Assembly (NCBI GenBank): GCA_016930215.1
Contig: JAFGHH010000046.1
Span: 1 to 38,706, forward strand
DNA: 38,706 nt
Origin: Deltaproteobacteria bacterium
Lineage (GTDB): Bacteria; Myxococcota_A; Polyangia; DRWM01; JAAZOP01
Direction of reading: 5' to 3'
Shown here one piece after another: positions 3,721 through 38,236 of the stretch (positions are counted from its first letter, which is position 1; each line of letters begins with the position of its first letter). The translations under genes and the position numbers were made by a program. The notes below the pieces were generated by a model. That model saw only the letters and a program-made list of their open reading frames with translations. It was not told where the DNA came from and searched no databases.

Positions 3721-4407
3721 TCATCTCGCGCCGTCCTGTGACGGCGCAAAAGACAGCTCTCCGGCCAGCACCTCGACCCGCCGCTCCAGCTCCGCGAGCG
3801 TGCCGTCGTTCACCACCACCCACCGGGCGCGGCGGCGACGCTCGGCATCGTCGAGCTGCACGGCGACGCGCGCGCGCACCGCCTCGGCAGCCACACCGTC
3901 GCGCGCCACCACCCGGCGCACCCGCGTCTCGATGTCGGCCAGCACCGCGACCACCCCGTCGAGCCACGCCTCGCGGCCGGTCTCGAAGACCAGCGCCGCC
4001 TCGTAGACGCACAACGCATGACCCTCCGCAGCACGCGCCGCGAGCCACTCGGCCGCCGCGGCGTCCACCCGCGGATGCAGCAGCCGCTCGAGGCGCCCGC
4101 GGGCCGTCGGGTCGGCGAAGACGCGCCGGGCCATCGCGGCGCGGTCGAGCGTTCCGTCCGGGAGCAGCGTGTCCGGTCCGAACTCCGCGACGACGGCGGC
4201 CAGCCCCGGCGACCCGGGCGCCGTCGCCTCGCGGGCCGCCTGGTCGGCGTCGAACACGGGGATGCCGCGGGCGCGGAGCAGGGCAGCGACGGCCGACTTG
4301 CCGCTGCCGATGCCGCCGGTCAGCCCCACCAGCCGCACGCCGGGCGGTCGCGGCACGGGGGCCGGCGCGCCGGGTTCCGGTCGGGCGGGGGAGGGGAGGG
4401 CGGGCAC
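3721..4407 (-). CDS. coaE: Dephospho-CoA kinase
   Basis: Catalyses the last step of coenzyme A synthesis, ATP-dependent phosphorylation of dephospho-CoA at the 3' hydroxyl, in the cytoplasm. Visible marks are the P-loop GLTGGIGSGKS, followed by the family signature VFDADQAARE, then the ARxRLERLLHPRV helix and the late lid/C-terminal part ending in a basic DAERRRRARWVVVNDG stretch. The chosen GTG start (228 residues) has a CGGAG ribosome site and lies 20 bases behind the fusion gene. A later GTG at 4338 would give 205 residues, the usual length, but has no ribosome site. The extra N-terminal residues are Pro/Ala-rich. It is probably co-transcribed with the upstream fusion gene. Confidence 0.9.
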   Translation of the reverse strand: MPALPSPARPEPGAPAPVPRPPGVRLVGLTGGIGSGKSAVAALLRARGIPVFDADQAAREATAPGSPGLAAVVAEFGPDTLLPDGTLDRAAMARRVFADPTARGRLERLLHPRVDAAAAEWLAARAAEGHALCVYEAALVFETGREAWLDGVVAVLADIETRVRRVVARDGVAAEAVRARVAVQLDDAERRRRARWVVVNDGTLAELERRVEVLAGELSFAPSQDGAR

Positions 4408-4427: not shown

Positions 4428-6431
4428 TCAGCCGCGCGAGTTCGGCTCGGGGTCGGTCCAGCGGTCGTAGCAGACGGTCTGGGCGAGCGGATGCCGCTGC
4501 CGCGGCCGCTCGTCCTTCGCCCGCGTTGCGGCGTCGAGGTGCGCCGGGTCGCCGGGGAAACCGATCGCCACGAGCGCGGCGATGCGCCACGGGTCGGGGA
4601 CGCCCAGCGCCTGCCGCGCCGCCGGCTCGTCGAACCCCGCCATCGGATGCCCGACCAGCCCCTCCGCCACCGCGGCCAGCAGCAGGTTCTCCGTGGCCAG
4701 GCCGCAGTCGAACGGGGCGTAGTTGATCCCGTGGACCGTCGCGGCGATCTCGGGGTTCATCAGCACCGCGCAGAGGAGCGGCGCCGACCGCGCCCACTCG
4801 TTCCCCTCCATCAGCGTCGCGTCCAGCGCCGTGCGCTCGGGCGAGTGCCGCGTGACGACCAGTCGCCACGGCTGGCGGTTCGCGCACGACGGCGCCCAGC
4901 GGAACGAGTGGATCAGCCGTTCGAGCACGGCGTCCGAGACGTGCAGCTCGGCGAAGGCGCGGGTCGAACGGCGCTTCTCGAGCAGCGGGTGGGAGCACGG
5001 TCCGAGCGTCCGCAGCTCGGGCGGCAGCTCGCGCGGATGGTCGTCGCGCAGCAGCTTGCCGCCCCGGGGGCGCAGCGACGCCGTCAGGTGCCGGCGGTCG
5101 CCCTCGTCCAGGATCTCGAGCGCTGCGATGCGGTGACGGTTGGCGAACACCTCGAGCGTCGCCTCGATCACGTAGTCGACGTGGCTGCGGGTGTAGGTGC
5201 GGCGCGGGAACGAGAACCGCACCAGGTCGTGGGGCACCGGGAGCGGCTCGCCGCGCGAGTCGGTCTTCCCGCCCAGCCGCAGCGTGCCCACCTCGGCGGC
5301 GCGGATGCCGGCGACGAGGTACAAGGCGCAGGTCAATGCCTGCGCCGGGAGGTCCTCGGGCTCCAGATGCGGCAGGAACGCCCGCGCATCGATCTGCACC
5401 GCGTGGCCGCCCGGGGGCTGGATGATCGGCACGCCCTCGCGGGCCAGGCTGCGCGCGAGGTGCTCCACGGTCTCGAGGCGGTGCGCGAGGTGGTTGGTGT
5501 CGAGCGCCTCCTGGAGGCCGATCGCCATCCCCTCGAGGTCGCGGGCGGCCAGGCCGCCATGGGTCGCCAGCCCCTCGCCGCGCAGCAGCGAGCGGCGGAT
5601 CTTCACCGACAGCTCCTGCTCGTTGAACGCCAGCAGCCCGCCCGTGTTGACGATGCCGTCCTTGCGCGCCGACAGCATCACGCCGTCGGCCAGCCGGAAC
5701 ATCTCGCGGGCGATGTCCTCCAGCGGCCGGCCGCGCCAGCGGTCCTCGCGGCGGTGGATGAAGTAGGCGTTCTCCGCGAAGTAGGCGCAGTCGAGGAACA
5801 GCCGGATGCCGTGCCGCGCCGTCAGGTCCCGCACCGCCTTGAGGTTCTCCATCGACACCGGCTGCCCGCCCCCGGCGGGGCTGGAGACGGCCAGGAACAC
5901 CACCGGGATCGCCTTGGCGCCCACCTTCTCGATCAGCTGCCGCAGGCGGTCGACGTCGATGTTGCCCTTGAACGGGTGGAACGAGTCGTTGCGGCCGGCC
6001 TCGAGGATCGGCAGCTCGACCGGGTCGCCCCCGGCGCTGCGCACGGCGGCACGGGTCGTGTCGAGGTGCGTGTTGGCCGGGATGGTGGAGCCCTGCTGGA
6101 CCAGCGCGGTGCACAACAGCCGCTTGGCGGCGCGGCCCTGGTAGGTCGGGACCACGTGGCGGTAGCCGAACAGGGCCCGCGCCGCGTCCTCGAGGCGGAA
6201 CAGGCTCTCGCTGCCGGCGTACGCCTCGTCGGCCGTCATCATCGCCGCCCATTGCGCGGAGGACATGGCGCCGGTGCCCGAGTCGGTGATCAGGTCGACG
6301 ACGACGTCCCGGGCCGGGATGCGCAACAGGTTGTAGTGCCCGGCCTCGAGCGCCGCCAGGCGCTCCTCGTAGGACGTCGGCCGGATCGGCCGGACGGTCC
6401 AGATCCGGAACGGCTCGATGATCGTCCGCAT
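4428..6431 (-). CDS. Tryptophanase/tyrosine phenol-lyase-like enzyme fused to a nitroreductase domain
   Basis: 667 residues. Residues 1 to about 470 are a PLP beta-eliminating lyase: DLITDSGTGAMS (46-57), DEAY with Tyr71, PTYQGR with Gln98-Arg100, D214, SARKD with PLP Lys257, and FPRRTYT with the carboxylate-binding Arg (405). Residues from about 475 are an FMN nitroreductase: RRSTRAF, APSCANRQPW, then FDCGLATENLLLAAVAEGL. Numbering matches Citrobacter tyrosine phenol-lyase, so substitutions can be read directly. Asn185 is Pro and Arg217 is Tyr (both bind PLP O3' in the family), Phe123 is Leu, Thr124 is Asp, and Arg381 is Val, the last as in tryptophanases. It is a cytosolic protein with no signal peptide. 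The ATG start is preceded by GAGGTGG. Single-domain versions of each half are well known; I do not know this fusion. Substrate and reaction are open. Confidence 0.88.
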   Translation of the reverse strand: MRTIIEPFRIWTVRPIRPTSYEERLAALEAGHYNLLRIPARDVVVDLITDSGTGAMSSAQWAAMMTADEAYAGSESLFRLEDAARALFGYRHVVPTYQGRAAKRLLCTALVQQGSTIPANTHLDTTRAAVRSAGGDPVELPILEAGRNDSFHPFKGNIDVDRLRQLIEKVGAKAIPVVFLAVSSPAGGGQPVSMENLKAVRDLTARHGIRLFLDCAYFAENAYFIHRREDRWRGRPLEDIAREMFRLADGVMLSARKDGIVNTGGLLAFNEQELSVKIRRSLLRGEGLATHGGLAARDLEGMAIGLQEALDTNHLAHRLETVEHLARSLAREGVPIIQPPGGHAVQIDARAFLPHLEPEDLPAQALTCALYLVAGIRAAEVGTLRLGGKTDSRGEPLPVPHDLVRFSFPRRTYTRSHVDYVIEATLEVFANRHRIAALEILDEGDRRHLTASLRPRGGKLLRDDHPRELPPELRTLGPCSHPLLEKRRSTRAFAELHVSDAVLERLIHSFRWAPSCANRQPWRLVVTRHSPERTALDATLMEGNEWARSAPLLCAVLMNPEIAATVHGINYAPFDCGLATENLLLAAVAEGLVGHPMAGFDEPAARQALGVPDPWRIAALVAIGFPGDPAHLDAATRAKDERPRQRHPLAQTVCYDRWTDPEPNSRG

Positions 6432-6726: not shown

Positions 6727-8373
6727 GTGCCGACGATCCTGTACCTGTGCGGCACGCAGGACCCGCCGACGGTGGGCGCGCGGATCGCCCGCGAGGGGGA
6801 TGCCCGGTGGTTGCCCTCCGGGGAGTTGGAGGTGGCCCGCGGCGAGGGGGAGCAGCGGACGAGCTACCGTTTCCTGTTCCACGCCTCCGCAGCCAACGCG
6901 GCGGCCGAGCTGGCGCGCACGCTCTGCGACCTGGTGGTCGTCGACAACCGCCCCGACCCGCGCCGACCGTACCGCTCGTTCGCCGCGACGCCGGCCGGCA
7001 AGCTGCTGCCGGTGCTGTCGAGCCTGCGCGGCGGTTCGCGCAACGTGTCGCGGCGCCAGCTCGTGCTGCTGCTGTCGACGGGCGAGACCCTGGCGCGCGA
7101 CGTCTACGTGGCCGGCGCGATGAAGCTCGGCGGCTACGTGGTCGACCCGTTCGTCGAGCCCGACCGGCCCGGACAGGGGTTCCTCGACCAGCTCGCCACG
7201 ATGCTGGGGACCCGCCGGCCGGGGAAGCTGGCGCTGTGCCTGTCGGGGGGCGGGATCGAGGGCTTGATCTACGAGCTGGGCGTGCTGCGGGCGCTGGACG
7301 AGTTCCTCGTGAACCGCAAGATCCCCGACTTCGACATCTTCTGCGGCATCAGCGCCGGGGCCATCCTCGCCGCCTTCCTGGCCAACGGCGTGCCGGTCGC
7401 CGAGCTGATCGCCGGGTTCAAGGACGGCACGGAGACGCTCGATGCGGTCGACCGGTCGATCCTCTTCCACCCCAACGCCGGCGAACTCGTCGCGCGGCTC
7501 GGGGGCCTGGCGCGTGGCCTCCTGCGCCGGGCGCTCGGAGGACCCGGCGGCCTGCGGGCCGGGCCGGACGCGGCCGAGGGGCGGACCGCGTCCTCCCTGG
7601 CACGGTTCGACGTGATCGAGACCCTGATGCGGATCGTGCCCGGCGGGTTCTTCTCCGGCCACCGCCTGCGCTGGTACCTGGAGGAACAGCTCACCCGTGC
7701 CGGGCGCACCAACTGCTTCCGGCAGCTCCGCAAGGAACTGTACATCGGCGCCACCGACCAGGACTCGGGGCGCCCCGTCGTGTTCGGCGAGGCCGGCTAC
7801 CGCGACGTGCCGATCTCCCACGCCGTCCGCGCCTCGTCCGCCCTCGTGCCGTACTACCCACCCGAGCCGCTCCTCGGCCGGTACATGGTCGATGGGGCGT
7901 TCACGCGCACGACGAACTTCTCGGTGGCGATCCGGCACGGCGCGCGCCTGGTGACGATCGTCAACCCCTTCGTCCCGCTGCTCGGAGCCCGCCCCGGCGC
8001 GACCGACCGCGAGGGCGGCGCGTTCGCCGCGCTGCAGGGGGTCAAGGCGCTCGTCCACTCGCGCTTCGAACAGGCGTTCCTGCACATCGATGAGGTGTAC
8101 CCGGACGTGGATTTCCACGTCTTCATCCCGGAGGGGGAGGAGCTCGAGCAGTTGACCGGGACGCTGATGAAGTTCTTCTACCGCGTGGAGATCGCCGATT
8201 TGGCCTACGAACACACGATGGCGCGGCTGCGCCGGCAGATGCCGGGAATCGCCGAACAGTTCCGGCGGCACGGGTTGATCCTGCGCGACCCCCGGTCCGA
8301 GGAGCCGGTGGCGCTGTCCGGCCCGGCGCCGGCGGCTCCCGCGGTGCCGGACGTCGCCGCGCGGGCGGGTTGA
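6727..8373 (+). CDS. Patatin-like phospholipase with an unknown N-terminal domain
   Basis: A predicted lipid acyl hydrolase with a Ser-Asp dyad. The glycine-rich oxyanion loop LSGGGIEGL (about residue 171), the nucleophile elbow GISAG with Ser209, and the DGA motif with Asp389 are all present, so the enzyme should be active. Residues 1-165 precede the patatin fold, with alternating hydrophobic strands (LCDLVVVDNR, QLVLLLSTG) suggesting an alpha/beta domain I cannot name. No signal peptide is visible; it is probably cytosolic or membrane-surface. The GTG start is chosen because GGGAGG lies 6 bases upstream; earlier in-frame starts have none. The stop is 3 bases before the next gene, so the two form an operon. 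Substrate unknown. Confidence 0.82.
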   Translation: MPTILYLCGTQDPPTVGARIAREGDARWLPSGELEVARGEGEQRTSYRFLFHASAANAAAELARTLCDLVVVDNRPDPRRPYRSFAATPAGKLLPVLSSLRGGSRNVSRRQLVLLLSTGETLARDVYVAGAMKLGGYVVDPFVEPDRPGQGFLDQLATMLGTRRPGKLALCLSGGGIEGLIYELGVLRALDEFLVNRKIPDFDIFCGISAGAILAAFLANGVPVAELIAGFKDGTETLDAVDRSILFHPNAGELVARLGGLARGLLRRALGGPGGLRAGPDAAEGRTASSLARFDVIETLMRIVPGGFFSGHRLRWYLEEQLTRAGRTNCFRQLRKELYIGATDQDSGRPVVFGEAGYRDVPISHAVRASSALVPYYPPEPLLGRYMVDGAFTRTTNFSVAIRHGARLVTIVNPFVPLLGARPGATDREGGAFAALQGVKALVHSRFEQAFLHIDEVYPDVDFHVFIPEGEELEQLTGTLMKFFYRVEIADLAYEHTMARLRRQMPGIAEQFRRHGLILRDPRSEEPVALSGPAPAAPAVPDVAARAG

Positions 8374-20745: not shown

Positions 20746-20827
20746 CGTTGCTCCTTTCACATCCGCCTTCGCGTGTAGCGCATTCGCACGGGCGCGCGCA
20801 ACGTCGAATTCAACTGCTCGATCCCCC

Positions 20828-20856
20828 TTGCGGGGCTTGGGGGGCTTCCGTATCAT
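20828..20856 (+). promoter_or_regulatory. Promoter of the giant TPR gene
   Basis: TTGCGG and TATCAT (5 of 6 of the -10 consensus) are exactly 17 bases apart. Transcription would start near 20863, giving a leader of about 77 bases. Confidence 0.6.
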
Positions 20857-20939
20857 CGGCCCCTGCCGAGGGTGCGGACCGCGGAATTCGATCGCTTTTC
20901 GAGGGGTCGCAGCGTCCGTGTCGCGAAGGAGGTTTCGTG

Positions 20940-23900
20940 ATGTCAACCCAACTCCCCCAGCTGCTTTCCTCCCTGCTGCAGACGCCGGGTGACGAGTCGA
21001 CCTTGACGGCGATCCGCGAGTGGGCGGCGGCGGGACCCGCTGCCGGGGACGCCGCGGAGGCGCTCTCGCGCGCGGAGACGGTCGTGGCGGAGTTGGGGAA
21101 GGCGGGGCGCTGGGGCGAGGCGGCCGCGCTGCTCGAGGCGTTGCTGCCGCTGGCGGAGGGCGAGCGGCGGGCCGAGCTGCTGGTGGCGCAGGGGCGCATC
21201 GAGGAGGAGTCGCTCTACGACGTGAAGAAGGCGCTGGCGACCTATCGCAAGGCACTGGATGCCTCGAGCGGACAGCCCGCGGCGACGGAGGCGGTGCAGC
21301 GGCTGGAACAGCTGGCGGCGGAGTGGAAGCGGATCGTCGAGCGGTTCGAGGAGGAGGCGGTTTCGGAGACCGAGCCGGCGCTCAAGAGCCAACTCTACCT
21401 GCGCGTGGCAGGGCTGGTGGAGTCGTTCGGGGGCAAGGCCAAGGAGCGCACCCCGGCGGTGCTCGGCCATCTGCAGAACGCGCTGCGGGCGAACCCCGCG
21501 AACCACGCCGCGGTGCAGATGCTGATCCGCGTGATGGGCCGGGCCAAGCGGCTCGACGACCTCGCCCCGCAGCTCGTGCAGCTGGCGGGCGAGGCGAAGG
21601 CCCGCGACGAGAAGGTCGCGCTGCTCAGCGAGGCGGCCAAGGCCTACGTGCGGCTCGAGCAGCCGGACAAGGCGGCCAAGCTGTACCAGGAGGTGCTCGG
21701 CCACGCCCCCGCGCACACCGCGGCGCTGTCGTTCCTCGTCGACTACTGCACGACCGTCGGCGACGCCGACCACCTCGTCGCGCTGTACGAGGAGATGCTC
21801 AAGACGCGGCCGAAGGGCGAGTCCGAGGTCGAGTTGCTGTTCCAGATCGGGATGGTGCACTGGCGGATGCGCAACGACGCGGCGACGGCCGAGGAGTACT
21901 TCCGGCGCATCCGCAAGACGAGCCCGGCGCACCCGGCTGCCCTGAATTTCTACCGGACGTTCTGCAAGGAGTCGGGCGACTTCACCCGCCTGCTCCAGAT
22001 CCTGCTCGAGGCGCAGCGCGCGGCGGAACACGACGACGAGAAGGTGCGCTACCTGCAGGAGATCGCCGAGCTGGCCGAACAGCGGCTGCAGAACGACGAG
22101 CGGGCGATCGAGGCCTTCAAGGGCGTGCTCAAGCTGCGCCCCGGCGACCGGACCGCCGCCGCACAGCTCAAGCGGCTGTACGGCAAGACCGAGAAGTGGA
22201 ACGCGCTGATCGATGTCTACAAGGGCGAGCTGGCCGCGGTCGAGGCCGGGGACGTCGCGGGGCGCTCGGCGTTGCTCGAGGAAATGGTCGCGATCTACCG
22301 GGATCACCTCCGCTCCGAGATGATGGTGATCAAGACCTGGCTCCAGGTCCTCGAGCTCGACGCGACCCACGCCGGCGCCTTCCAGGCCCTGCGCGAGATC
22401 TTCACGCAGGCCGGGCGCTGGAACGATCTGATCGCGCTGCTTACCCGGCGGGCCGAGGGCGCCGAGAGCAAGGACGAGAAGGTCGCCCTGTACCGCGAGA
22501 GCGCGACGATCTGGATGCAGCGCCTGAACAACCTCAACAACGCGGTCAAGCCGCTCGAGATGATCCGGCAGCTCGACCCCCGCGACCTCGAGACCAACGG
22601 CCTGCTCAAGGAGATCTACGGCAAGCGCCGCGCCTTCCCGGAGCTGTACGCGCTCCTCGTCGACGAGCTGCCCGACGTCCCGGCGGACCGGCGGGTCGAG
22701 CAGCTGACGCAGATCGCGCAGCTGGCCGGCGAGCGGCTCGACAAGCGCGAAGAGGCGATCCGGCTGTGGTGGGAGATCCTGGACCTCGACCCGGAACGCC
22801 AGGACGTCTTCGATATCATCGAGCGCCTCGCGGAACGGGCGAAGGACTTCGAGGAAGTGGCGCGGGTGGTCCGCAAGCGCATCGAGCGCGAGACGGCGGA
22901 GCAGGGCCGCGTACAGCTCCTGGGCAAGCTCGCCGTCATCTACCAGGACCGCCTGCGCGACCCCAAGCGGGCGGCCTCCGCCTACCAGGAGATCCTCGAG
23001 CTGCAGCCCGGGCATTCCAAGGCGATCCGCATGCTCAAGGAGTCGTTCCTCGCGGCCGGCGACTTCCCGGCCCTCGAGCGGCTGTACGAGTCCCAGAACG
23101 ACTGGGAAGGCCTCGTCGAGAGCCTCGGCGTGGCGGCCGACCGCACCGACGACCGGGCGCTGCGGATCGAACTGTCGTTCAAGGCGGCGCGCGTCTACGA
23201 GGAGCGCATCGAGCAGCCCGAGCGCGCCTTCCGGGCCTACGAGCGGGTGCTCGAGGTCGAGCCGCAGAACCGTGCGGCCGCCGAGGCGCTGGCGCGGATC
23301 TACGAGCGGCAGGAGGACTGGAAGGCGCTGGCCCGCGCCCTCACCGTGCTGGCCGACCTCGCCCGGACCCCGGACGACAAGCTGCCGCTCGCGCGGCGCC
23401 TTCGGGAGTTGTACGCCGAGCGGCTCCACGAGCCCGCGCGGGCCTTCGAGTGGGCCCGGCACTGCTACGAGCTCGCCCCGCGGGACGCCGACGTCGTCGC
23501 CGCGCTCGAACTGCATGCCGAGGAGCTGCGAGCGTTCGAGGACCTGCTGCGCCTGTTCGAGAAGCGGCTGCCCGAGGCCAAGGGGGAGGAGCGGGTCGAC
23601 CTGCTGCGCCGCATCGCCGGCATCCAGGCCTCGCGGCTCGGCGACGTCGATGCGGCCATCGAGGCCTACCGCAGGGTACTGCGCGAACACCCCGGCGCGG
23701 TCGAGGCCGTCCAGTCGCTCGAGCACCTGCTGCAGTCCTCCGGCAAGCTCGAGCTGCTCGCGTCGTTCTACCGCGAACGGCTGGAGGAGACCGCGGACGC
23801 TGCGCCCCGGTTGGCCTGGCTCGTCAAGCTCGCCGGGCTGCTCGACGAGGGACTCGATCGGACCGACGAGGCCGTCCAGACCTGGCGCCAGATCCTGGAC

Positions 23901-26900
23901 GTCGAGCCGGACCACGATGCGGCCCTCGATGCCCTGGAGCGGATCTACCACGCCACCGGCCGCTCGGCCGAGCTCGCCGAGGTGCTGCAACGCAAGCGCG
24001 GCAAGCCGGGAACCGGCCCGGCCCGGATGGAGCTGACCTTCCGACTCGGCCAGCTCTTCGCCGGGCCCCTCGAGCAGGAGGCCAAGGCGATCGAAGCGTT
24101 CCGCGAGGTGTTGCAGACGGAACCCGGCCACGCCGAGGCCGTCGCGGCGCTCGAGAAGTACCTGGCGAAGCCCGAACACCGCCTGGACGTCGCGCGGTTC
24201 CTCGAGCCGCACTACCTCGAGTCGAACAACTTCCCCAAGCTCGCCTGGGCGCTGCAGATCATCATCGAGGGAACCGCCGCCGGGTCGCAGCGACTGGAGC
24301 TGATGCGGCGGCTGGCGCGGGTCTACGAGGAAGCGCTGGCCGATGCGGAGGCCGCGTTCCTCACGCTCTCCGAGGCGGTCGGCGAGAACCCCGCCGAGGA
24401 GGAGCTGTGGGACGACTTCGACCGCCTCGCCGCCGTGGTCAAGGACCGCGCCGGCCAGGTCAAGCGCCTGGAGGAGGTCTACGACTCCGGCCGCCTCGGC
24501 GACGACGCCCAGCTCCGCCTGGCGCGCCGGCTGGCCGTGCTCTGCGACGAGGCTCTCGGCGAACGCAAGCGCGCCGAGCGGTACCACCGGTTGATCCTCG
24601 AGCGTGACGCGGACGATGCGGCGTCGTTCTCCGCGCTCGATGCGCTGCTCAAGCTCGAGGAGCGCTACGACGACCTGTCCCAACTCCTGCGGGCCCGCGC
24701 CGACCGCGCGACCCAGGACGCCGTGCGGGTCGACATGCTCCAGCAGCTCGCCTTCCTGCTCGAGGACATGCTCGAGCGGCCCGACCAGGCGACGGCCACG
24801 TACCGCGAGCTCCGCGAGCTGCAGCCCGACAACGAGGTCGCGATCCGGGCGCTCGAGCGCCTGTACCAGCAGCAGGAACAGTGGGAGCGGCTCGTCGAGC
24901 TGCTCGAGACGACCTTGCCGGTGGTCCGTTTCGAGGACGAGCTGGACCGGCGGCTGCGCATCGCCGAGCTGCGCGAGCAGAAGCTCGCACAGCCCGCCGC
25001 CGCGCTCGACGACTACCGCCAGATCCTCTCCCGCAGGCCCGACGACGCCCGCGTGCTCCAGGCGCTCGAGCGCCTGTTGGCGGTCGAGACGCTGCGCCAG
25101 GAGGTGGCCGACCTGCTCGCGCCGCTGCACGAGCGGGCGGGACGGTATGCCGATCTCGGTCGCGTCCTGGCCGTGAAGCTCGAGGCCGCGGCGACACCGT
25201 CGGACAAGGTGCTGGTGTGGACGCGCATCGCCCAGATCCGCGAGGACGCCCTGACCGACCTCGACGGCGCCTTCGAGGCCTACTCGCAGGCGGTGGAGGC
25301 CGACCCGACCGACCCGGCGCCGCGCACGCAACTGGCGCGGATCGCCGACGCCCAGGGGCTCCACGCGTTGTACGCCGACGTGCTGGAAGGCATCCTGGGG
25401 AAGCTCGGCGACGACCTCCCGTTGCGCGCCGAGCTCCTCGGCCGGCTGGCGGCGCTCTACGACGAGTCGCTCAACGACCCGGCCAAGGCCGAGCAGGCCT
25501 ATCGCCGCTGGCTCGACGTCGACCGCGACGACCCCTCGATCGCGATTCCCGCGGCACAGGCCCTGGAGCGGATCCTCGCGGCGCGCGAACGGCACGCCGA
25601 CCTGGTCGATGTGCTGCGGATCCAGGCGCGCTTCGCGGAGACCGCGGAACGGCGCGTGGAGCTGCTGCGCCGCGTGGCCGAGATCCAGGAGTCGTTCCTC
25701 AACGACGGGGCCGCCGCGCTGCTCACGGTCGAGGAACTCGACGAGGTCGCCCCGCAGGACCCCGACAACCTGCGCGCGCTCGAGCGGCTCTACCACCAGG
25801 CCGGCCAGTGGCTGAAGCTCGTCGACGTGCTGCGCCGGCGCTCGACGCTCGCCGCCGACCCCCAGGACCGCCGCAGCATCGCCTACCGCATCGCCGAGCT
25901 GCTCGAGGAGAAGCTCGCCGATCGCGACGAGGCGATCGTGGCCTACCAGGGGATTCTCGCCGAGGCGCCGGGCGAGGTGCCCGCGGTGCGGGCGCTGATC
26001 CGCCTGTTCCAGGCCTCCGCGCAGTGGTCCGACCTGCTCGATACCCTGCACCGGATGCTCGAGCTGGCCACGGACCCGGTCGAGCAGGTCGCGCTGCTGT
26101 GCAACATGGGCGACGTGCAGCGCGAGCGGACCAAGGACCTGTCGGAGGCGGTCGAGTCGTACCGCCGCGCGTTGGAGCGGGACGGTCAGAGCGTCGCGGC
26201 CCGCACGGCCCTGGAGCAGCTGACGACGGAGCCCGACGTCAAGCTTGCCGCGGCCCGCATCCTGGCCGGGGTCTACGAGCGGGAGGCCAGCTTCGGCCGC
26301 CTGCTGGAAATGCTCGACATCGAGACCGCCGAGGCCGAGGACGACGAGCGCCGGATCGCCGCGCTGCGGCGGTCGGCCGAGGTCGCCGAGGTGGGGCTCG
26401 GCGACGTGCGCCGTTCCTTCGGCTATGCCGGCCAGGCCTTCCGCCTGATGGCCGGCACGCCGGAGGCGGCTGCCGCGGTCGCCGAGCTCGAACGGCTGGC
26501 GCGGGGCACCGGCGACGCGGCGGCCCTGGCCACGCTCTACCGCGAGGTCGCCCCCGACCTGATCGATCTCGCCCTGCAGACCACCGTCTACCTCCGCGTG
26601 GCCGAACTGGCCCGGCAGGCGTCGCAGTACGACACGGCGACCGAGTACTACACCAAGGTCCTGGACAACGACCCCGCCAACCTCGGCGCCCTCGACGCCC
26701 TCGACCAGGTCTACACGGCCACCGAACGCTGGTCCGACCTGCTCGAGATCTACCGCCGCAAGGGGGACCTGGCCCAGGTCCCCGCGGAGAAGGTCACCCT
26801 GCTGCTGCAGCAGGGACGACTGTGCGAGCAGAAGCTCGGGGACCAGTCCACGGCCGTCGCCTGCTACGAGGCCGTGCTGGAGGCGGACGAACGGAACGCG

Positions 26901-29900
26901 GAGGCCACGACGGCGCTCGAGCGCCTCTACGCCGAGGCCGAACGCTGGTCGCCGCTGGTGTCGTTGTTCGAACGCCAGCTGGAATGGCCGGGAGTGGACG
27001 TCCTCGCGCTGCGCCAGCGCGCCGCCGATACCGTGCTCGAGAAGCTCGGCGACCCGCCGCGCGCGTTCGAGCACTACCGCGCCGCGCTCGAGGCGAATCC
27101 GACCTACCCACCGACCCTCGAGCGGCTCGAGTCGCTGCTGCGCGAGGGCGACCACCGGGCCGAGGCGGCCGTCGTCCTGGAGGAGGTCTACCGGCGGCGG
27201 ATGGAGCTGCAGAAGCTCGTCGAGGTGCTGCTGGTCCGCCACGACCTGGAGGAGTCGCCCGACGACCGCAAGCAGACCCTGCGGCAGGTCGGCCAGCTCT
27301 ACGAGGAGCAGTTGGAGAACCTGGACCAGGCGTTCGTCGTCTACGGCCGGCTGTTCCGCGAGGACATCGAGGATGCCGACAGCCGGGAGCTCGTCGAGCG
27401 ACTGGCGGGGGTGATGTCGACCTGGTCGCGACTGGCGGACCTGTACGAGGCGATCCTCAAGGATGCCGACGTCGATACCCAGGCCACGGCGGCCCTGGCC
27501 TTCCGCCTGGGCGAGGTGGCCGAGGAGCGGCTTCGCGACTTCCCGCGGGCCCGCGAGGCGTACCGGCGGGCCCACGCCTTCGAGCCGAGCAACCAGCAGG
27601 CAATGGGGGCGCTGGAACGCGTGTTCGCCGCCACCGAGGACTGGGCCGCGCTGCTCGAGCTGCTGCGCCAGGTCGCCGACGGGACGTACGACCCGGCCGC
27701 GCGCAAGACGCTGCTGTTCCGCATGGCCGCGATCCTCGAGGAGAAGCAGGAGAACCGCGCCCAGGCCATCGATGTCTACGTCGAGGTGCTCGACGTGGAC
27801 CCGGCCGACGCCCAGGCGATCGCCGCCCTCGATCGGCTGTACTACTACGAGAAGCGCTGGGACGACCTGGCCGACCTGTTGCTGCGCCAGATCGAACAGC
27901 TGGCGGACGAACGCTCCGGCAACGCGCTCCGCTATCGCCTGGCGATGCTGTACCAGGAGCAACTGGCCGACGTGGAGCGCGCCGTGGCGACCCTCGAGGA
28001 AGTCCTGCGCCTCGACCCGGCCTTCCGGGAGGCGATCGCGGCGATGGAGTCCCTGCTGTCCGACCCCGACCAGCGCTTCCGCGTCGCCCAGTCGCTGGTC
28101 CCCGTGTACCAGCAGCTCGACGACTGGGAGAGCCTGGTCCAGGTCTACCAGGTCGAGCTCGAGGCGCTGCAGGACCCGACCGAACGGATCCTGCGCTGGC
28201 TGGAGATCGCGCGGCTGTACGAGGCCAAGGGCAACGACCCGCGCAGCGCCTTCCGCGCCTACTCCGCCGCCTTCACCGAGGACCCCAGCGACCAGGGCGT
28301 GCTGGAGCAGCTCCAGCGCCTGGCGACGGCGCTCGGCGGCTGGGCCGAACTGGTCGTGGCGCTCGAGGCCGGCCTGAAGAAGCTCGACGACGGCACGATG
28401 AAGGCCGACCTCCTGCGCCAGATCGCCCGCACGCTCGACCGGCGCCTCGGCGACTTCCGCGGCGCCGTGTCGGCCTACGAGCGCCTGCTCCAGCTCGAGC
28501 CCGCCGATCTCGAGGCCATCGACGGCCTCGACGCCCTTCTCACGCTGCTGGCCGAGTGGAACCGCCTGATCGAGGTGCTGGACCTGCGGGCCGACATGGT
28601 CGGCGACGCCGTACAGCAGAAGGCGGTCCGGCAGCGCCAAGGCGAGATCTGCGAGGAACAGCTCGGGCGCCTCGACGACGCCATCGACTTCTACCGCAAG
28701 GCCCTCGACCTCGACGAAACGGACCTCAAGCTGTACGACTCGATCGCGGCGCTGTTCGAGCGCCGGGAACGCTGGGCCGAGCTGGTCGAGCTCCTCGAAC
28801 GCAAGCTGACCGTGCTGGCCGACCCGGCCGGACGCCGCGAAACCCTCGCCCGCATGGCGCGCACCCAGCACGAGCGGCTCCAGAACAACGCCGCGGCCGT
28901 CCAGAGCTGGCGCTCGCTGCTCGAGGAGGCCCCGGCCGACCGCGAGGCGCTCGACGCGCTCGACGCGCTGCTCGAGGCCGATCAGGCCTGGTACGACCTC
29001 GTCGAGATCCTGCAGCGCAAACTCGACGCCGCCGGCACCGACGCCGAGCGGCTCGCCCTGCGACTGCGCCTCGGGCAGCTCGCCCGGCAGCAGATCGAGG
29101 ACCCGACCGCCGCGATCGAACACTACGAGCGGGCCCTGGCCCTGGCGCCGGACACCGTCGAGGCGGTGACGGCGTTGCGGGCGATCGCGGAGGACGAGGA
29201 GCATCGCTTCCGCGTGTTCGACATCCTCGAGCCGGCGTTGCGGCATCGCGGCCGCTGGCAGGACCTGCTGGAGCTGCGCGAGCTGCGCCTGAAAGCGATC
29301 GAGGACCCCCTGGCGCGGGTCGAGGAACTGGCGTCGATCGCCGACCTCCTCGAGCGGGCCCTTGGCCGGCCGGCCGAGGCCTTCGAGGCGCATCTGCGGG
29401 CGGTGCGGGAGGAAGCCCCGTCGCCCGCGGCGATCGAGGCGGCCCAGCGGCTGGCCGTGCAGCTGGGCAAGTGGGGCGACCTGTACGACGCCCTCGGTGC
29501 CAAGGCCAAGGTCACCTCCGACGCACAGGCCGGCGGGGCGCTGTGGATGCTCGCCGGTGCGATTGCCGAGTCCCAGATCGAGGACGTCGATCGCGCCGTC
29601 GTCGCCTACCGCGCCGCCCTCGACACCGGCGTCGCCGAGGCCGAGTCGCTGGAGGCCCTGGACCGCCTGTACTCGCGTCTCGAACGCTGGGACGACCTCG
29701 TGGAGGTCCTCGAGCGGAAGCTCGGTGCCGCCCCCGACCCCGCCCAGCAGAGCCGCATCGAGCTCCGCATCGGCCGGCTGCGCCTCGAGCGCTACCGCGA
29801 CATCGATGCGGCGATCGCCGCCATGCGCGCCGTGCTCGAACGGACGCCGGACGACGTCGAGGCGACGCAGCTGCTGGAATCGCTGTGGGACCGGACCGAA

Positions 29901-32123
29901 CAGCTCCCCGTGCTGCTCGAGATCCTCGGGCCTGTCTACCGCGCGCGCGGGGAGTTCCGGAGCCTGCTCCAGCTGATGGAGCTCCGGACCAAGGAGCTGG
30001 CCGACGGCGGCGAGCGCGTGGCGATGCTGCGCGAAATGGCCGAGCTGGCGGAGGAGCAGTTGCACGACCCGGGCCGCGCCTTCGATTGCCTGGCGCGGGC
30101 CTTCGAGACCCAGCCCGACGAGAGCGGACTGCTGGAGGATGTCGAGCGGCTGGGCGAGGTGCTGGGCGCGTTCCCGCAGCTGATCGAGCTGGGGGCCAAG
30201 GCCGCCGAGCGGGTCGACGACGCCTCGACCAAGACCGCGCTGCTGCTGCGTTGCGCCCGCTGGGCCGCCCGCACCGGCGACGACGGCCGTGCCGTCGAAT
30301 TCCACCGCGCCCTGCTGGCGCTGGAGCCGGAGCACGAGGAGTCGCTGCGCGAGCTCCAGGAGCTGCTCGAGCGCCTCGGCCGACACGCCGAGCTCGCCGA
30401 TGTCGTCGAGCGGCGGGCGGTCGTGGTCTACGACCTGGAAGAGAAGAAACGCCTGCTCCGCGGGCTCGCCCAGCTCGCCGTCGAGCGTCTCGGCGACCTC
30501 CAGCGCGCCGCCGGCGCCTACGACCGGCTGCTCGAACACGACGAGTCCGACCTCGAGGCGCTCGACGCCGTGATCGCGCTGCGCGAGCGGCTCGAGGAAT
30601 GGCCGACGCTGGCCGAATTGCTCGCGCGGCGCCTGCAGGTGACCGCGGACCCGGGCCCGGCCAACGCCATTCGCAAGCGCCTCGGCGCACTGCTGCTCGG
30701 ACCGCTCGAGCGCGCCGAGGAAGGCCTGGCGACCCTCAAGGAAATCCTCGACGACGCGCCCGAGGACCCCGACGCGATCGGCACGCTCGAAGGCCACTAC
30801 TCCCGGCACGAGCGCTGGAACGACCTGCGCGACCTGCTGCGCGACCGGCTGGACCGGAGCACCGACGCCGCCGCCCGCCTGGCGCTCCTGGAGCGGCTCT
30901 CCGAGCTGGCCGAGACGCGGCTCGAGGCGCCCGAGGAGGCGCTGGACTTCGCGCTCCAGATGCTCGACGTCGAGCGCACCCATGCCGCGGCGCGCGGGCG
31001 CGTCGAACGGCTGCTGGGGTCGCTCCAACGCTGGGACGACCTGGCGATGCACTTCGAGACCTGGGTGCGCGAGGCCGAGGGCCACGACCCCACGGAGGAG
31101 CTGCGGCTCCTGGTGAAGATCGGCGAGATCCGCGAGCGCGAAATGGACGACCCGGACGGCGCCGTGGAGTACTTCGAGAGGGTGTTGGCGCGCGAGGCCA
31201 ACCACACGCTGGCGCTGGCCGCCCTGGCGCGGATCCACGAGCGGAAGGGCGACTGGGCGAAGTGCGTGGAGGTGCTGGAACGCGCCGTGGGCAGCGGCGG
31301 CGCCCCGGCCGACGTCTCCGAGGCGCTCGTCCGGCTGGGCAAGGTGAAGCAGGACCACCTGAAAGACGTCCCCGGCGCGCTGCTCAACTACCAGCAGGCG
31401 GTCCAGGCCAACCCGGAGAACCGGGGCGCCGTGGACGCCGTCCTCGCCCTCTCCAAGCAGGCCAACGAGTGGCCGACCTGGGCCGCGTACGCCGAGTACG
31501 CGCTGCGCTTCGTCGCCGACGACAAGGACAAGGTGACTCCGCTGCTCGAGGTCGCCGGCGTGCACGCCGAGAAGCTCGGCGACCGCGCCAAGGCCCTGCA
31601 GCTCGTCGAGGCCGTGCGGACCATCGCGCCGGACGACCGCAACGTGCTGGTCAGGCTCTGCGACCTGCTGACCCAGGAGGGGCGGACCGACGAGGCGATC
31701 CCGATCCTGGAGCAGTTGGTGACGGGCGAGGAAGGCGCCGGCAAACGGCGCGGCAAGGAAACCGCGGTCTACCTCGAACGGCTGGCGGCCGCGCTGGAGG
31801 CCAAGGGCGACCGCGCCGGCGCCCGCACGCGCCTGGAAGAAGCCGCGCGGATCGATGTCACCAACGTCGCCGTCGCCTATCGCCTCGGCCTGCTGTACCA
31901 GCAGGAGGGCGAGGTCGAGCGGTCGATGCAGAAGCTGCGCCCGCTGCTGCTGCAGAAGATCGACCCCCAGAGCGGTGTCGACAAGGCCGACGTCTACTTC
32001 CACCTGGCCGAGATGCACATCGGCAAGAACGAGAAACCGAAGGCGCTGTCGATGATCGAACGAGGCCTGCAGGCCAACCCGGACCACGGAGGCTGCAAGA
32101 CGCTCAAGGAGCAACTGAAGTAG
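20940..32123 (+). CDS. Giant soluble TPR-like repeat protein (3727 residues)
   Basis: One unbroken 11.2 kb gene. There is no signal peptide or membrane segment, so it is probably cytoplasmic. Nearly all of it is helical repeat: a unit of about 72 residues, each two TPR-like hairpins, with the pattern W-x-D-L-x-x-L-L, then E-R-L-x-D, A-I-x-x-Y-x-x-V-L, L-D-P, A-L-x-x-L-x-R-L-Y. About 50 units fit. At about residues 1076, 1382, 1764, 2375, 2751 and 2984 a unit carries an extra helix of about 17 residues (VARFLEP-type). The C-terminal 100 residues are more canonical TPRs. The start is the ATG after AAGGAGG, 8 bases away. Very large TPR proteins occur in myxobacteria, including one in the gliding machinery; orthology is not shown. 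Likely a scaffold. Confidence 0.88.
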   Translation: MSTQLPQLLSSLLQTPGDESTLTAIREWAAAGPAAGDAAEALSRAETVVAELGKAGRWGEAAALLEALLPLAEGERRAELLVAQGRIEEESLYDVKKALATYRKALDASSGQPAATEAVQRLEQLAAEWKRIVERFEEEAVSETEPALKSQLYLRVAGLVESFGGKAKERTPAVLGHLQNALRANPANHAAVQMLIRVMGRAKRLDDLAPQLVQLAGEAKARDEKVALLSEAAKAYVRLEQPDKAAKLYQEVLGHAPAHTAALSFLVDYCTTVGDADHLVALYEEMLKTRPKGESEVELLFQIGMVHWRMRNDAATAEEYFRRIRKTSPAHPAALNFYRTFCKESGDFTRLLQILLEAQRAAEHDDEKVRYLQEIAELAEQRLQNDERAIEAFKGVLKLRPGDRTAAAQLKRLYGKTEKWNALIDVYKGELAAVEAGDVAGRSALLEEMVAIYRDHLRSEMMVIKTWLQVLELDATHAGAFQALREIFTQAGRWNDLIALLTRRAEGAESKDEKVALYRESATIWMQRLNNLNNAVKPLEMIRQLDPRDLETNGLLKEIYGKRRAFPELYALLVDELPDVPADRRVEQLTQIAQLAGERLDKREEAIRLWWEILDLDPERQDVFDIIERLAERAKDFEEVARVVRKRIERETAEQGRVQLLGKLAVIYQDRLRDPKRAASAYQEILELQPGHSKAIRMLKESFLAAGDFPALERLYESQNDWEGLVESLGVAADRTDDRALRIELSFKAARVYEERIEQPERAFRAYERVLEVEPQNRAAAEALARIYERQEDWKALARALTVLADLARTPDDKLPLARRLRELYAERLHEPARAFEWARHCYELAPRDADVVAALELHAEELRAFEDLLRLFEKRLPEAKGEERVDLLRRIAGIQASRLGDVDAAIEAYRRVLREHPGAVEAVQSLEHLLQSSGKLELLASFYRERLEETADAAPRLAWLVKLAGLLDEGLDRTDEAVQTWRQILDVEPDHDAALDALERIYHATGRSAELAEVLQRKRGKPGTGPARMELTFRLGQLFAGPLEQEAKAIEAFREVLQTEPGHAEAVAALEKYLAKPEHRLDVARFLEPHYLESNNFPKLAWALQIIIEGTAAGSQRLELMRRLARVYEEALADAEAAFLTLSEAVGENPAEEELWDDFDRLAAVVKDRAGQVKRLEEVYDSGRLGDDAQLRLARRLAVLCDEALGERKRAERYHRLILERDADDAASFSALDALLKLEERYDDLSQLLRARADRATQDAVRVDMLQQLAFLLEDMLERPDQATATYRELRELQPDNEVAIRALERLYQQQEQWERLVELLETTLPVVRFEDELDRRLRIAELREQKLAQPAAALDDYRQILSRRPDDARVLQALERLLAVETLRQEVADLLAPLHERAGRYADLGRVLAVKLEAAATPSDKVLVWTRIAQIREDALTDLDGAFEAYSQAVEADPTDPAPRTQLARIADAQGLHALYADVLEGILGKLGDDLPLRAELLGRLAALYDESLNDPAKAEQAYRRWLDVDRDDPSIAIPAAQALERILAARERHADLVDVLRIQARFAETAERRVELLRRVAEIQESFLNDGAAALLTVEELDEVAPQDPDNLRALERLYHQAGQWLKLVDVLRRRSTLAADPQDRRSIAYRIAELLEEKLADRDEAIVAYQGILAEAPGEVPAVRALIRLFQASAQWSDLLDTLHRMLELATDPVEQVALLCNMGDVQRERTKDLSEAVESYRRALERDGQSVAARTALEQLTTEPDVKLAAARILAGVYEREASFGRLLEMLDIETAEAEDDERRIAALRRSAEVAEVGLGDVRRSFGYAGQAFRLMAGTPEAAAAVAELERLARGTGDAAALATLYREVAPDLIDLALQTTVYLRVAELARQASQYDTATEYYTKVLDNDPANLGALDALDQVYTATERWSDLLEIYRRKGDLAQVPAEKVTLLLQQGRLCEQKLGDQSTAVACYEAVLEADERNAEATTALERLYAEAERWSPLVSLFERQLEWPGVDVLALRQRAADTVLEKLGDPPRAFEHYRAALEANPTYPPTLERLESLLREGDHRAEAAVVLEEVYRRRMELQKLVEVLLVRHDLEESPDDRKQTLRQVGQLYEEQLENLDQAFVVYGRLFREDIEDADSRELVERLAGVMSTWSRLADLYEAILKDADVDTQATAALAFRLGEVAEERLRDFPRAREAYRRAHAFEPSNQQAMGALERVFAATEDWAALLELLRQVADGTYDPAARKTLLFRMAAILEEKQENRAQAIDVYVEVLDVDPADAQAIAALDRLYYYEKRWDDLADLLLRQIEQLADERSGNALRYRLAMLYQEQLADVERAVATLEEVLRLDPAFREAIAAMESLLSDPDQRFRVAQSLVPVYQQLDDWESLVQVYQVELEALQDPTERILRWLEIARLYEAKGNDPRSAFRAYSAAFTEDPSDQGVLEQLQRLATALGGWAELVVALEAGLKKLDDGTMKADLLRQIARTLDRRLGDFRGAVSAYERLLQLEPADLEAIDGLDALLTLLAEWNRLIEVLDLRADMVGDAVQQKAVRQRQGEICEEQLGRLDDAIDFYRKALDLDETDLKLYDSIAALFERRERWAELVELLERKLTVLADPAGRRETLARMARTQHERLQNNAAAVQSWRSLLEEAPADREALDALDALLEADQAWYDLVEILQRKLDAAGTDAERLALRLRLGQLARQQIEDPTAAIEHYERALALAPDTVEAVTALRAIAEDEEHRFRVFDILEPALRHRGRWQDLLELRELRLKAIEDPLARVEELASIADLLERALGRPAEAFEAHLRAVREEAPSPAAIEAAQRLAVQLGKWGDLYDALGAKAKVTSDAQAGGALWMLAGAIAESQIEDVDRAVVAYRAALDTGVAEAESLEALDRLYSRLERWDDLVEVLERKLGAAPDPAQQSRIELRIGRLRLERYRDIDAAIAAMRAVLERTPDDVEATQLLESLWDRTEQLPVLLEILGPVYRARGEFRSLLQLMELRTKELADGGERVAMLREMAELAEEQLHDPGRAFDCLARAFETQPDESGLLEDVERLGEVLGAFPQLIELGAKAAERVDDASTKTALLLRCARWAARTGDDGRAVEFHRALLALEPEHEESLRELQELLERLGRHAELADVVERRAVVVYDLEEKKRLLRGLAQLAVERLGDLQRAAGAYDRLLEHDESDLEALDAVIALRERLEEWPTLAELLARRLQVTADPGPANAIRKRLGALLLGPLERAEEGLATLKEILDDAPEDPDAIGTLEGHYSRHERWNDLRDLLRDRLDRSTDAAARLALLERLSELAETRLEAPEEALDFALQMLDVERTHAAARGRVERLLGSLQRWDDLAMHFETWVREAEGHDPTEELRLLVKIGEIREREMDDPDGAVEYFERVLAREANHTLALAALARIHERKGDWAKCVEVLERAVGSGGAPADVSEALVRLGKVKQDHLKDVPGALLNYQQAVQANPENRGAVDAVLALSKQANEWPTWAAYAEYALRFVADDKDKVTPLLEVAGVHAEKLGDRAKALQLVEAVRTIAPDDRNVLVRLCDLLTQEGRTDEAIPILEQLVTGEEGAGKRRGKETAVYLERLAAALEAKGDRAGARTRLEEAARIDVTNVAVAYRLGLLYQQEGEVERSMQKLRPLLLQKIDPQSGVDKADVYFHLAEMHIGKNEKPKALSMIERGLQANPDHGGCKTLKEQLK

Positions 32124-37014: not shown

Positions 37015-37043
37015 TTGACACCCCTGGGGTCGGATGGTAGCTT
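37015..37043 (+). promoter_or_regulatory. Strong promoter of the Cys-rich repeat gene
   Basis: A perfect TTGACA and TAGCTT are 17 bases apart; the spacer contains the small palindrome CCCCTGGGG. Transcription would start near 37050, about 26 bases before the ATG. It separates the Cys-rich gene from the operon. Confidence 0.65.
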
Positions 37044-37075
37044 GCCCGCGCCGGGGAATTTCGGTGAGGTGCAGC

Positions 37076-38236
37076 ATGATAAGGGCATATCACGCGATTC
37101 TGGCCGCGCTGGTGGTCGGGGTGCTGCTCGCGGTCGGCGTGCGGTGCGCGGGGACCGAGGAGGAGTGCACGCTGGCCGCACCGGCGACCTGCGGCGCCGA
37201 CGACTGCGTCGACCTTGCCAGCGACCCCGAGAACTGCGGCGCGTGCGGCCACAGCTGCAACGGCGGCAGCTGCGTCCGCGCTCTGTGCGTCTGCGGCGGG
37301 ACGACGTGCGCCGCGGGGTCGATCTGCTGCGACGGCGCCTGCGCCAACCTCAATTCCGACCGCGCCAACTGCGGCGCGTGCGGCATGGCCTGCCCCGACG
37401 GCATCGGTTGCACCCTCGGCGTCTGCACCGGCGAGGCCTGTCCGGGCGGCTGCGGCGACGGCCAGACCTGCTGCGGCCTCGGCTGCGTCGATACGCGCAG
37501 CGACTCCTCCAACTGCGGTAGCTGCGGTCATGTCTGCGACGCCGGGCAGATCTGCGACAACGGGATCTGCCTTACGTCGGCCTGCTCCCCGCCGTGCGTC
37601 CTCCCCGAGCGCTGCTGCGGCGAGACCTGCACGAACGTCACCACCGACGTCGACAACTGCGGCTACTGCGGCAACCGGTGCCTCGAGTCCGACCCGCCGC
37701 TCGCCGACCGCTGCGCCGAGATCGGCGGCCGCGCCCAGTGCGCCTGCGGCGGGACGGCCGCCTGCCGGACCGGCCAGATCTGCTGCGCCGACGGCTGCCG
37801 CAGCGTGACCGCCGACCCCAACAACTGCGGCGCCTGCGGCAACGTCTGCCCGGCCGGGCACACCTGCTCCTCGGGCGCCTGCGTCTGCGGGGCCACCGGC
37901 GGCCCGTGCGGCGAGGGCGAGGCCTGCTGCTCCGGCAGCTGCATCGACATCAGCAGCGACGTCCACAACTGCGGAGGCTGCGGCAGCGCCTGCAACCCCA
38001 CCCTCGCCGACGCCTGCGTCGACAGCGAGTGCAAGTGCGGCACGTCCAACGCGTGCCGCCCCGGCGCCGGGTTCATGTGCGCCATGGTCACCAACGCCGA
38101 ACGGTGCTGCTCGGGGGCCTGTCGCGCCATCGACAACACGGCGTGCGCCGACTGCGACACGCCGTGCGACGCGGAGCTGGAATGCACCGCCACGATGCTG
38201 CCGCTCTACCCCCCCTGCAGCTTCGCCTGCCAGTAG
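37076..38236 (+). CDS. Exported Cys-rich repeat protein (MXAN_6577-like)
   Basis: 386 residues. Begins with MIRAYHAILAALVVGVLLAVGVRC, a signal peptide; the Cys context is not a standard lipobox. The rest consists of Cys-rich units with the core D-x-x-N-C-G-x-C-G, seen six times (ENCGACG, ANCGACG, SNCGSCG, DNCGYCG, NNCGACG, HNCGGCG), each followed by C-x-x-G-x-C and CC-x-x-x-C. The last unit is degenerate (CADCDTPC). This type is characteristic of myxobacterial secreted proteins; likely a disulfide-rigid surface or extracellular protein of unknown role. The ATG at 37076 is chosen over one 14 codons earlier because it begins the signal peptide and has GAGGTG upstream. Confidence 0.82.
   Translation: MIRAYHAILAALVVGVLLAVGVRCAGTEEECTLAAPATCGADDCVDLASDPENCGACGHSCNGGSCVRALCVCGGTTCAAGSICCDGACANLNSDRANCGACGMACPDGIGCTLGVCTGEACPGGCGDGQTCCGLGCVDTRSDSSNCGSCGHVCDAGQICDNGICLTSACSPPCVLPERCCGETCTNVTTDVDNCGYCGNRCLESDPPLADRCAEIGGRAQCACGGTAACRTGQICCADGCRSVTADPNNCGACGNVCPAGHTCSSGACVCGATGGPCGEGEACCSGSCIDISSDVHNCGGCGSACNPTLADACVDSECKCGTSNACRPGAGFMCAMVTNAERCCSGACRAIDNTACADCDTPCDAELECTATMLPLYPPCSFACQ

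Follow-up and report, generated by a model that had tools for sequence, protein, structure and literature searches.

A single gene in the Myxococcota genome analysed here encodes a tryptophanase/TPL-family pyridoxal phosphate (PLP) lyase joined in frame to an FMN nitroreductase, and whole-genome searches place this fusion in all four available genomes of the genus. The lyase half keeps its PLP lysine, yet its cofactor pocket has been extensively altered. On balance, we regard the gene as probably encoding a genuine, genus-restricted bifunctional PLP/FMN enzyme whose lyase pocket has been remodelled and neofunctionalised towards a new substrate or type of reaction. Should its halves cooperate, it would to our knowledge be the first tryptophanase/TPL-family enzyme to have its cofactor pocket rebuilt around a lysine that is kept.

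The fusion gene lies within a window of 38,706 nucleotides (the whole stretch of DNA that was analysed). Its coordinates were correctly given in a first-pass annotation, and the strand, unstated there, is minus.

4428..6431, minus strand: fusion gene, 667 aa (ATG at 6431, TGA at 4430-4428; full length in four genomes)
5067..6431, minus strand: lyase domain (tryptophanase/TPL-family PLP), residues 1-455, placed by PF01212, NF009709 and Foldseek
4989..5066, minus strand: inter-domain linker, residues 456-481, without an indel among the four species
4431..4988, minus strand: FMN nitroreductase domain, residues 482-667, placed by PF00881, the structure model and the nearest solved fold (4eo3)

The chain (MRTIIEPF...EPNSRG) extends over 667 codons to a TGA stop without a frame break, and a ribosome-binding-like GAGG lies 5′ of the ATG. 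The G+C content by codon position is 73/49/97%, and a comparison of the four species finds synonymous changes in excess in the minus frame. Together, the contrast between 97% at the third position and 49% at the second and the synonymous excess identify the minus strand as the coding, translated strand. The plus frame of 4428-6431 is likewise open because of the high G+C. A plus-strand reading was discarded, as the match found there (L002) is only the antisense of an unfused tryptophanase.

Profile searches recover both enzymes from this one chain. Pfam places PF01212 (Beta_elim_lyase) at residues 46-423 (E 4e-62, 210.6 bits against a cut-off of 27) and PF00881 (Nitroreductase) over a best stretch of 544-624 (E 5e-21, 76 bits against 23.5). 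NCBIfam assigns the lyase half to subfamily NF009709, 'tryptophanase', at about 540 bits (cut-off 285). The open reading frame and the Pfam matches thus bear out the original description of two enzymes in an unbroken 667-residue chain. The proposed domain order also stands, but the lyase ends near residue 455 rather than 470 and the reductase begins near 482 rather than 475. Structure prediction, suggested at the outset as a check, was carried out on the full-length chain and on the separate flavin domain, both as monomers. In the full-length AlphaFold model the lyase is confident; the linker and reductase mostly have a pLDDT of 30-65, too low for domain geometry. The separate flavin-domain model reaches a pLDDT of 94 and a pTM of 0.89. 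Together with Foldseek comparisons, these models support two complete enzyme folds.

The genes that flank the fusion are conserved with it.

3721..4407, minus strand: coaE (dephospho-CoA kinase), next gene (PF01121, E 5e-53); the possible GTG start at 4407 is uncertain
6790..8373, plus strand: patatin-like phospholipase, divergent neighbour (PF01734), start uncertain

In all four genomes coaE lies downstream of the fusion, and the divergent patatin and a cobalamin-binding-protein-like gene are kept upstream. The adjacency of coaE remarked on earlier is real but yields no functional link: neither coaE nor the divergent patatin or cobalamin-binding-protein genes gave a functional clue, and the patatin-like phospholipase is probably unrelated in function. 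Elsewhere in the window, a 3791-codon open frame at 20748-32120 (plus strand) consists mostly of tetratricopeptide repeats, and the strand opposite carries a 4127-codon open frame that is a G+C effect. A 400-residue protein at 37034-38236 (plus strand) has a Pfam match to the plant stigma-specific, cysteine-rich STIG1-like family (E 3e-30), odd for a bacterium; it is probably a repeat-rich surface protein.

The fusion recurs as a full-length chain of 662-667 residues in three further assemblies, at 93, 79 and 78% identity. These came from a contig scan with short exact peptides from this one query, and matching coordinates and identities lead us to take them to be the genus's other three genomes. 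The four chains align without internal gaps, linker included. Both the lyase and the reductase halves are under purifying selection, with dN/dS of 0.07-0.10 in close pairs and 0.20-0.26 in distant pairs for both domains, values that are rough at 97% GC3. The conservation evidence is shallow in that all four genomes belong to one genus. Every source is a draft assembly and at least three are titled as metagenome-assembled genomes, which might raise the suspicion of an assembly, sequencing or gene-calling artefact. That suspicion can be set aside with near certainty, because four assemblies at 78-93% identity agree in carrying the unbroken chain next to identical neighbouring genes; the assembly error once offered as grounds for dismissing the fusion finds no place here.

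A search for the same domain order found no listed match outside the genus that spans both domains among sampled genomes of the class (290), the phylum (379, overlapping the class sample) and Planctomycetota (246), samples that leave room for the fusion elsewhere. One further genome of the order gave reductase matches only and no fusion. Unfused tryptophanases are frequent in the three larger samples, and among the unfused lyases examined none has a close relative of the fusion's reductase beside it. The caution that most homologues might be separate genes thus holds for the wider families, but it does not make the fusion artefactual. Apparent longer matches that extend past the lyase stop (for example G539, 2-610; L008, 1-494) were rejected, as profiles find no adjacent reductase. 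At L089:1471-3502 (G170:C189), an unfused tryptophanase is followed closely by a nitroreductase-family gene with a lipoprotein-like start that looks SagB-like rather than akin to the fusion's domain. The two genes may possibly be an independent pairing of the tryptophanase and nitroreductase families. A literature search found no paper that treats a nitroreductase domain together with a fused pyridoxal lyase; two papers in which tryptophanase, nitroreductase and fusion protein co-occur name them just a few times each and, judging by their titles, deal with different topics. The novelty of the two-enzyme architecture stands.

The lyase half resembles TnaA and TPL (PF01212, NF009709) in fold, length, PLP lysine, Y71, D214 and R405. 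Foldseek aligns its model with most TPL and tryptophanase structures at a TMt of 0.87-0.94, and its identity is about 37-40% to solved TnaA/TPL members, rising to at most 52% against unfused homologues from Myxococcota. Unlike these enzymes, it carries a C-terminal reductase and falls below the equivalog cut-offs for TnaA (TIGR02617, 393.3 of 825.8 bits; NF053783, 420.7 of 750) and TPL (TIGR02618, 435.9 of 720.7 bits); unfused relatives in the phylum fall below them too. The indole-lyase specificity positions of TnaA are D137, F304, V394, I396 and H463 (PMC5805759). The fusions have D/E124, L/M288, A379, V/I381 and H448 there, alike at 3/5 (the first, fourth and fifth). TPL identity is excluded by the absence of R381 and F448, the fusions having V/I381, H448 and D/E124 (T124 in TPL). 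A more distant parallel is the thiocysteine lyase (SH) domain of guangnanmycin synthase (9cen; 24% identity, TMt 0.82), also a tryptophanase-like PLP fold in a multidomain protein; unlike the fusion, it sits in a polyketide synthase pathway and has no flavin domain.

Residue comparisons were guided by E. coli TnaA and TPL, with a pocket list drawn partly from general knowledge of TPL structures. The principal retained and replaced positions are:

5661..5663, minus strand: K257, the lysine that forms the PLP Schiff base (Lys270 in E. coli TnaA), kept in the alignment with TnaA and TPL
5877..5879, minus strand: Pro185 for invariant Asn (TPL N185, TnaA N198); all four fusions have P, all 60 others N
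5781..5783, minus strand: Tyr217 for invariant Arg (TPL R217, TnaA R230); all four fusions have Y, all 60 others R
5664..5666, minus strand: Arg256 for the invariant Lys beside the PLP lysine; all four fusions have R, all 60 others K
5559..5561, minus strand: His291 for invariant Tyr (TnaA Tyr307), from the alignment and pocket comparison
6063..6065, minus strand: Leu123 for invariant Phe, from the alignment and pocket comparison

In total, all four fusions carry identical replacements at six pocket positions that never vary among the 59 unfused rows (F123L, N185P, R217Y, K256R, Y291H and F449L). Outside the pocket, unfused-invariant residues changed in the fusions are F36L, E103K, T181A and T183S; TPL was left out of the 59-row count and itself has Ala at 181. 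Among the listed controls, E. coli TnaA alone has a unique pocket replacement (1/12), although it is more divergent overall. The pocket share of unique changes is thus higher in the fusion (6/10) than in TnaA (Fisher p 0.02), and pocket enrichment within the fusion alone is marginal (hypergeometric p 0.05).

Several of the replaced residues have known or presumed roles. We take F123 to stack on PLP in TPL, and N185 and R217 to bind the PLP O3′. In TnaA, PLP is bound by Lys270, while its phosphate is contacted from the neighbouring subunit by Tyr74 and Tyr307, which correspond to Y71 and H291 here (PMC2770544). The N185A substitution destabilises the quinonoid intermediate and weakens TPL (PMC5054688); by analogy, N185P might leave the lyase weak or inactive. 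Sixteen pocket residues are retained in the fusions, among them K257, Y71, Q98, R100, D214, S254 and R405, and T49, E69, H448 and D/E124 are likewise kept. The PLP lysine (K257), the pyridine-nitrogen Asp (D214), the trans Tyr71 and the carboxylate Arg (R405) are present in all four.

All four fusions cluster in a single clade of the lyase tree (SH-aLRT 100). Its inner branch, at 1.42 changes per column, is the longest in the tree, and the tips measure only 0.02-0.05; fast change followed by constraint is the pattern that neofunctionalisation would leave. The genus's own unfused tryptophanase does not join them, although the placement of so long a branch is unsure. That unfused enzyme is encoded in at least two of the genus's genomes (G000:C442:6498-7859, L061 and L098; G004:C448:4273-5634, L097 and L101), and the copy in the window's own genome has all the canonical pocket residues.

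A different rearrangement of the family was observed in related Myxococcota genomes, where proteins of ~900 residues carry two TPL modules in one frame with complementary decay.

L155:777-3593, plus strand: tandem TPL
L156:314-3175, plus strand: tandem TPL
L157:624-3863, minus strand: tandem TPL
L158:694-3441, minus strand: tandem TPL
L159:2448-5081, minus strand: tandem TPL
L160:778-3480, plus strand: tandem TPL
L161:582-3389, minus strand: tandem TPL

In half 2 the cis set (K257, K256, R100, F123, N185, D214, R217 and R405) survives together with the TPL markers R381, T124 and F448, but the trans-donated Y71, Y291 and usually E69 are gone. Half 1 keeps Y71, Y291 and E69 and is without K257, N185 and R405 and, except in L161, also R100 and F123. 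From their residues, all seven look like covalent pseudo-heterodimers with one active site per chain. A literature search found no description of tandem TPL pseudo-dimers, which are perhaps more striking than the lyase-nitroreductase fusion itself.

In the C-terminal half of the fusion, the flavin motifs RRSTR and PSxxNxQP are intact.

4959..4973, minus strand: RRSTR, FMN-phosphate motif, residues 487-491, from sequence alignments
4866..4892, minus strand: PSCANRQPW, FMN-binding motif, residues 514-522 (two of the four species have A in place of the W)

The nearest solved fold is the reductase domain of the Thermotoga maritima peroxiredoxin-nitroreductase hybrid (4eo3), matched in structure at a TMq of 0.86 (E 3e-18) and in sequence at E 3e-26. 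Both proteins are fusions with a C-terminal reductase, but the partner is a peroxiredoxin in T. maritima and an N-terminal PF01212 PLP lyase here. Chloroflexota and Myxococcota have nitroreductases (e.g. L038-L058, L127-L154) with about 30-45% identity to the fused domain and the same FMN motifs; in contrast to it, each of these stands alone as a single-domain gene, to the extent that the frames were read. The flavin half misses the BluB and RutE equivalog cut-offs (56 of 150 and 70 of 152 bits). Dehalogenation by this domain, as first suggested, is unsupported: iodotyrosine deiodinases match only its N-terminal part, in an alignment confined to residues 465-530 (E 1e-5).

The lyase half most likely still binds PLP via K257 and the carboxylate of an L-amino acid via T49 and R405, and would then catalyse a PLP-dependent elimination or related Cα/Cβ reaction whose substrate is neither plain Trp nor plain Tyr. 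The flavin half belongs with the FMN/NAD(P)H oxidoreductases of the Thermotoga hybrid type and would use NAD(P)H for a two-electron reduction. Judging from both enzyme families, the chain is probably a tetramer bearing two reductase dimers. Tyr217 presumably restores the D-x-x-Y spacing of aspartate aminotransferases, and Arg284, a fusion-only residue, adjoins TPL position 283 in the lyase alignment; for these two reasons an acidic amino acid is one candidate substrate, a lead rather than a result. In TPL, an engineered Arg at position 283 combined with R100T yields a dicarboxylic amino-acid beta-lyase (PMC5054688). Coupling of both steps on one substrate is a tentative proposal that we would not yet bet on. 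Rather less likely again is a single-chain PLP/FMN lyase-reductase with chemistry new to the tryptophanase family, in which an unusual amino acid would be the substrate of the PLP half, and the product or a released enamine/imine that of the FMN half, which would reduce it.

The first-pass annotation held that a fusion implies channelling. This does not follow, for in the T. maritima hybrid, the flavin half's closest solved relative, the two domains work independently, without exchanging redox equivalents (PMC8395237). There is accordingly a sizeable minority chance that the lyase and reductase share transcription and an oligomer with no common intermediate, and the examined unfused lyases, which lack such a reductase next door, fit this picture. 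Against it, the linker length is kept in all four species and the pocket is remodelled in the fused form only, which suggests co-adaptation but is no proof. The annotation had also envisaged an active lyase from which indole or phenol could be released. It is true that the catalytic lysine, Y71, D214, R405, H448 and D/E124 are kept, but because six invariant pocket residues have changed, ordinary tryptophanase activity cannot be assumed, and such release is doubtful. An ordinary tryptophanase whose reductase acts on indole or another lyase product is accordingly improbable: the three shared specificity positions speak for it, and the differing equivalents of F304 and V394 and the canonical unfused copy already in the genome speak against it. 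The shortfall from the tryptophanase and TPL equivalog cut-offs, shared by unfused relatives, decides little.

Marginally less improbable, and still unlikely, is a lyase half that no longer catalyses and instead serves as a scaffold or amino-acid sensor, forming tetramers and regulating the flavin reductase. N185P, R217Y, F123L and Y291H do remove contacts important to the canonical reaction, and the tandem TPLs show that dead halves exist within the family. However, K257, D214, Y71, S254, Q98, R100, T49 and R405 are all retained, and purifying selection on the lyase is as strong as on the reductase. The residue pattern instead suggests a lyase half that is remodelled, not dead, because the dead tandem-TPL halves lose K257, R405 and nearly always R100, which the fusions keep; N185 is lost in both.

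Whether or not its halves cooperate, the fusion cautions against automatically annotating such genes as tryptophanase. The fused enzyme lends itself to direct testing: it is a single gene product, both cofactors can be followed by spectroscopy, and the genus's own unfused tryptophanase offers a natural control. If the two halves prove independent, the fusion would be the second case, after the Thermotoga hybrid, of this reductase type carried on another enzyme. If they cooperate, it would be a natural one-chain PLP/FMN cascade.
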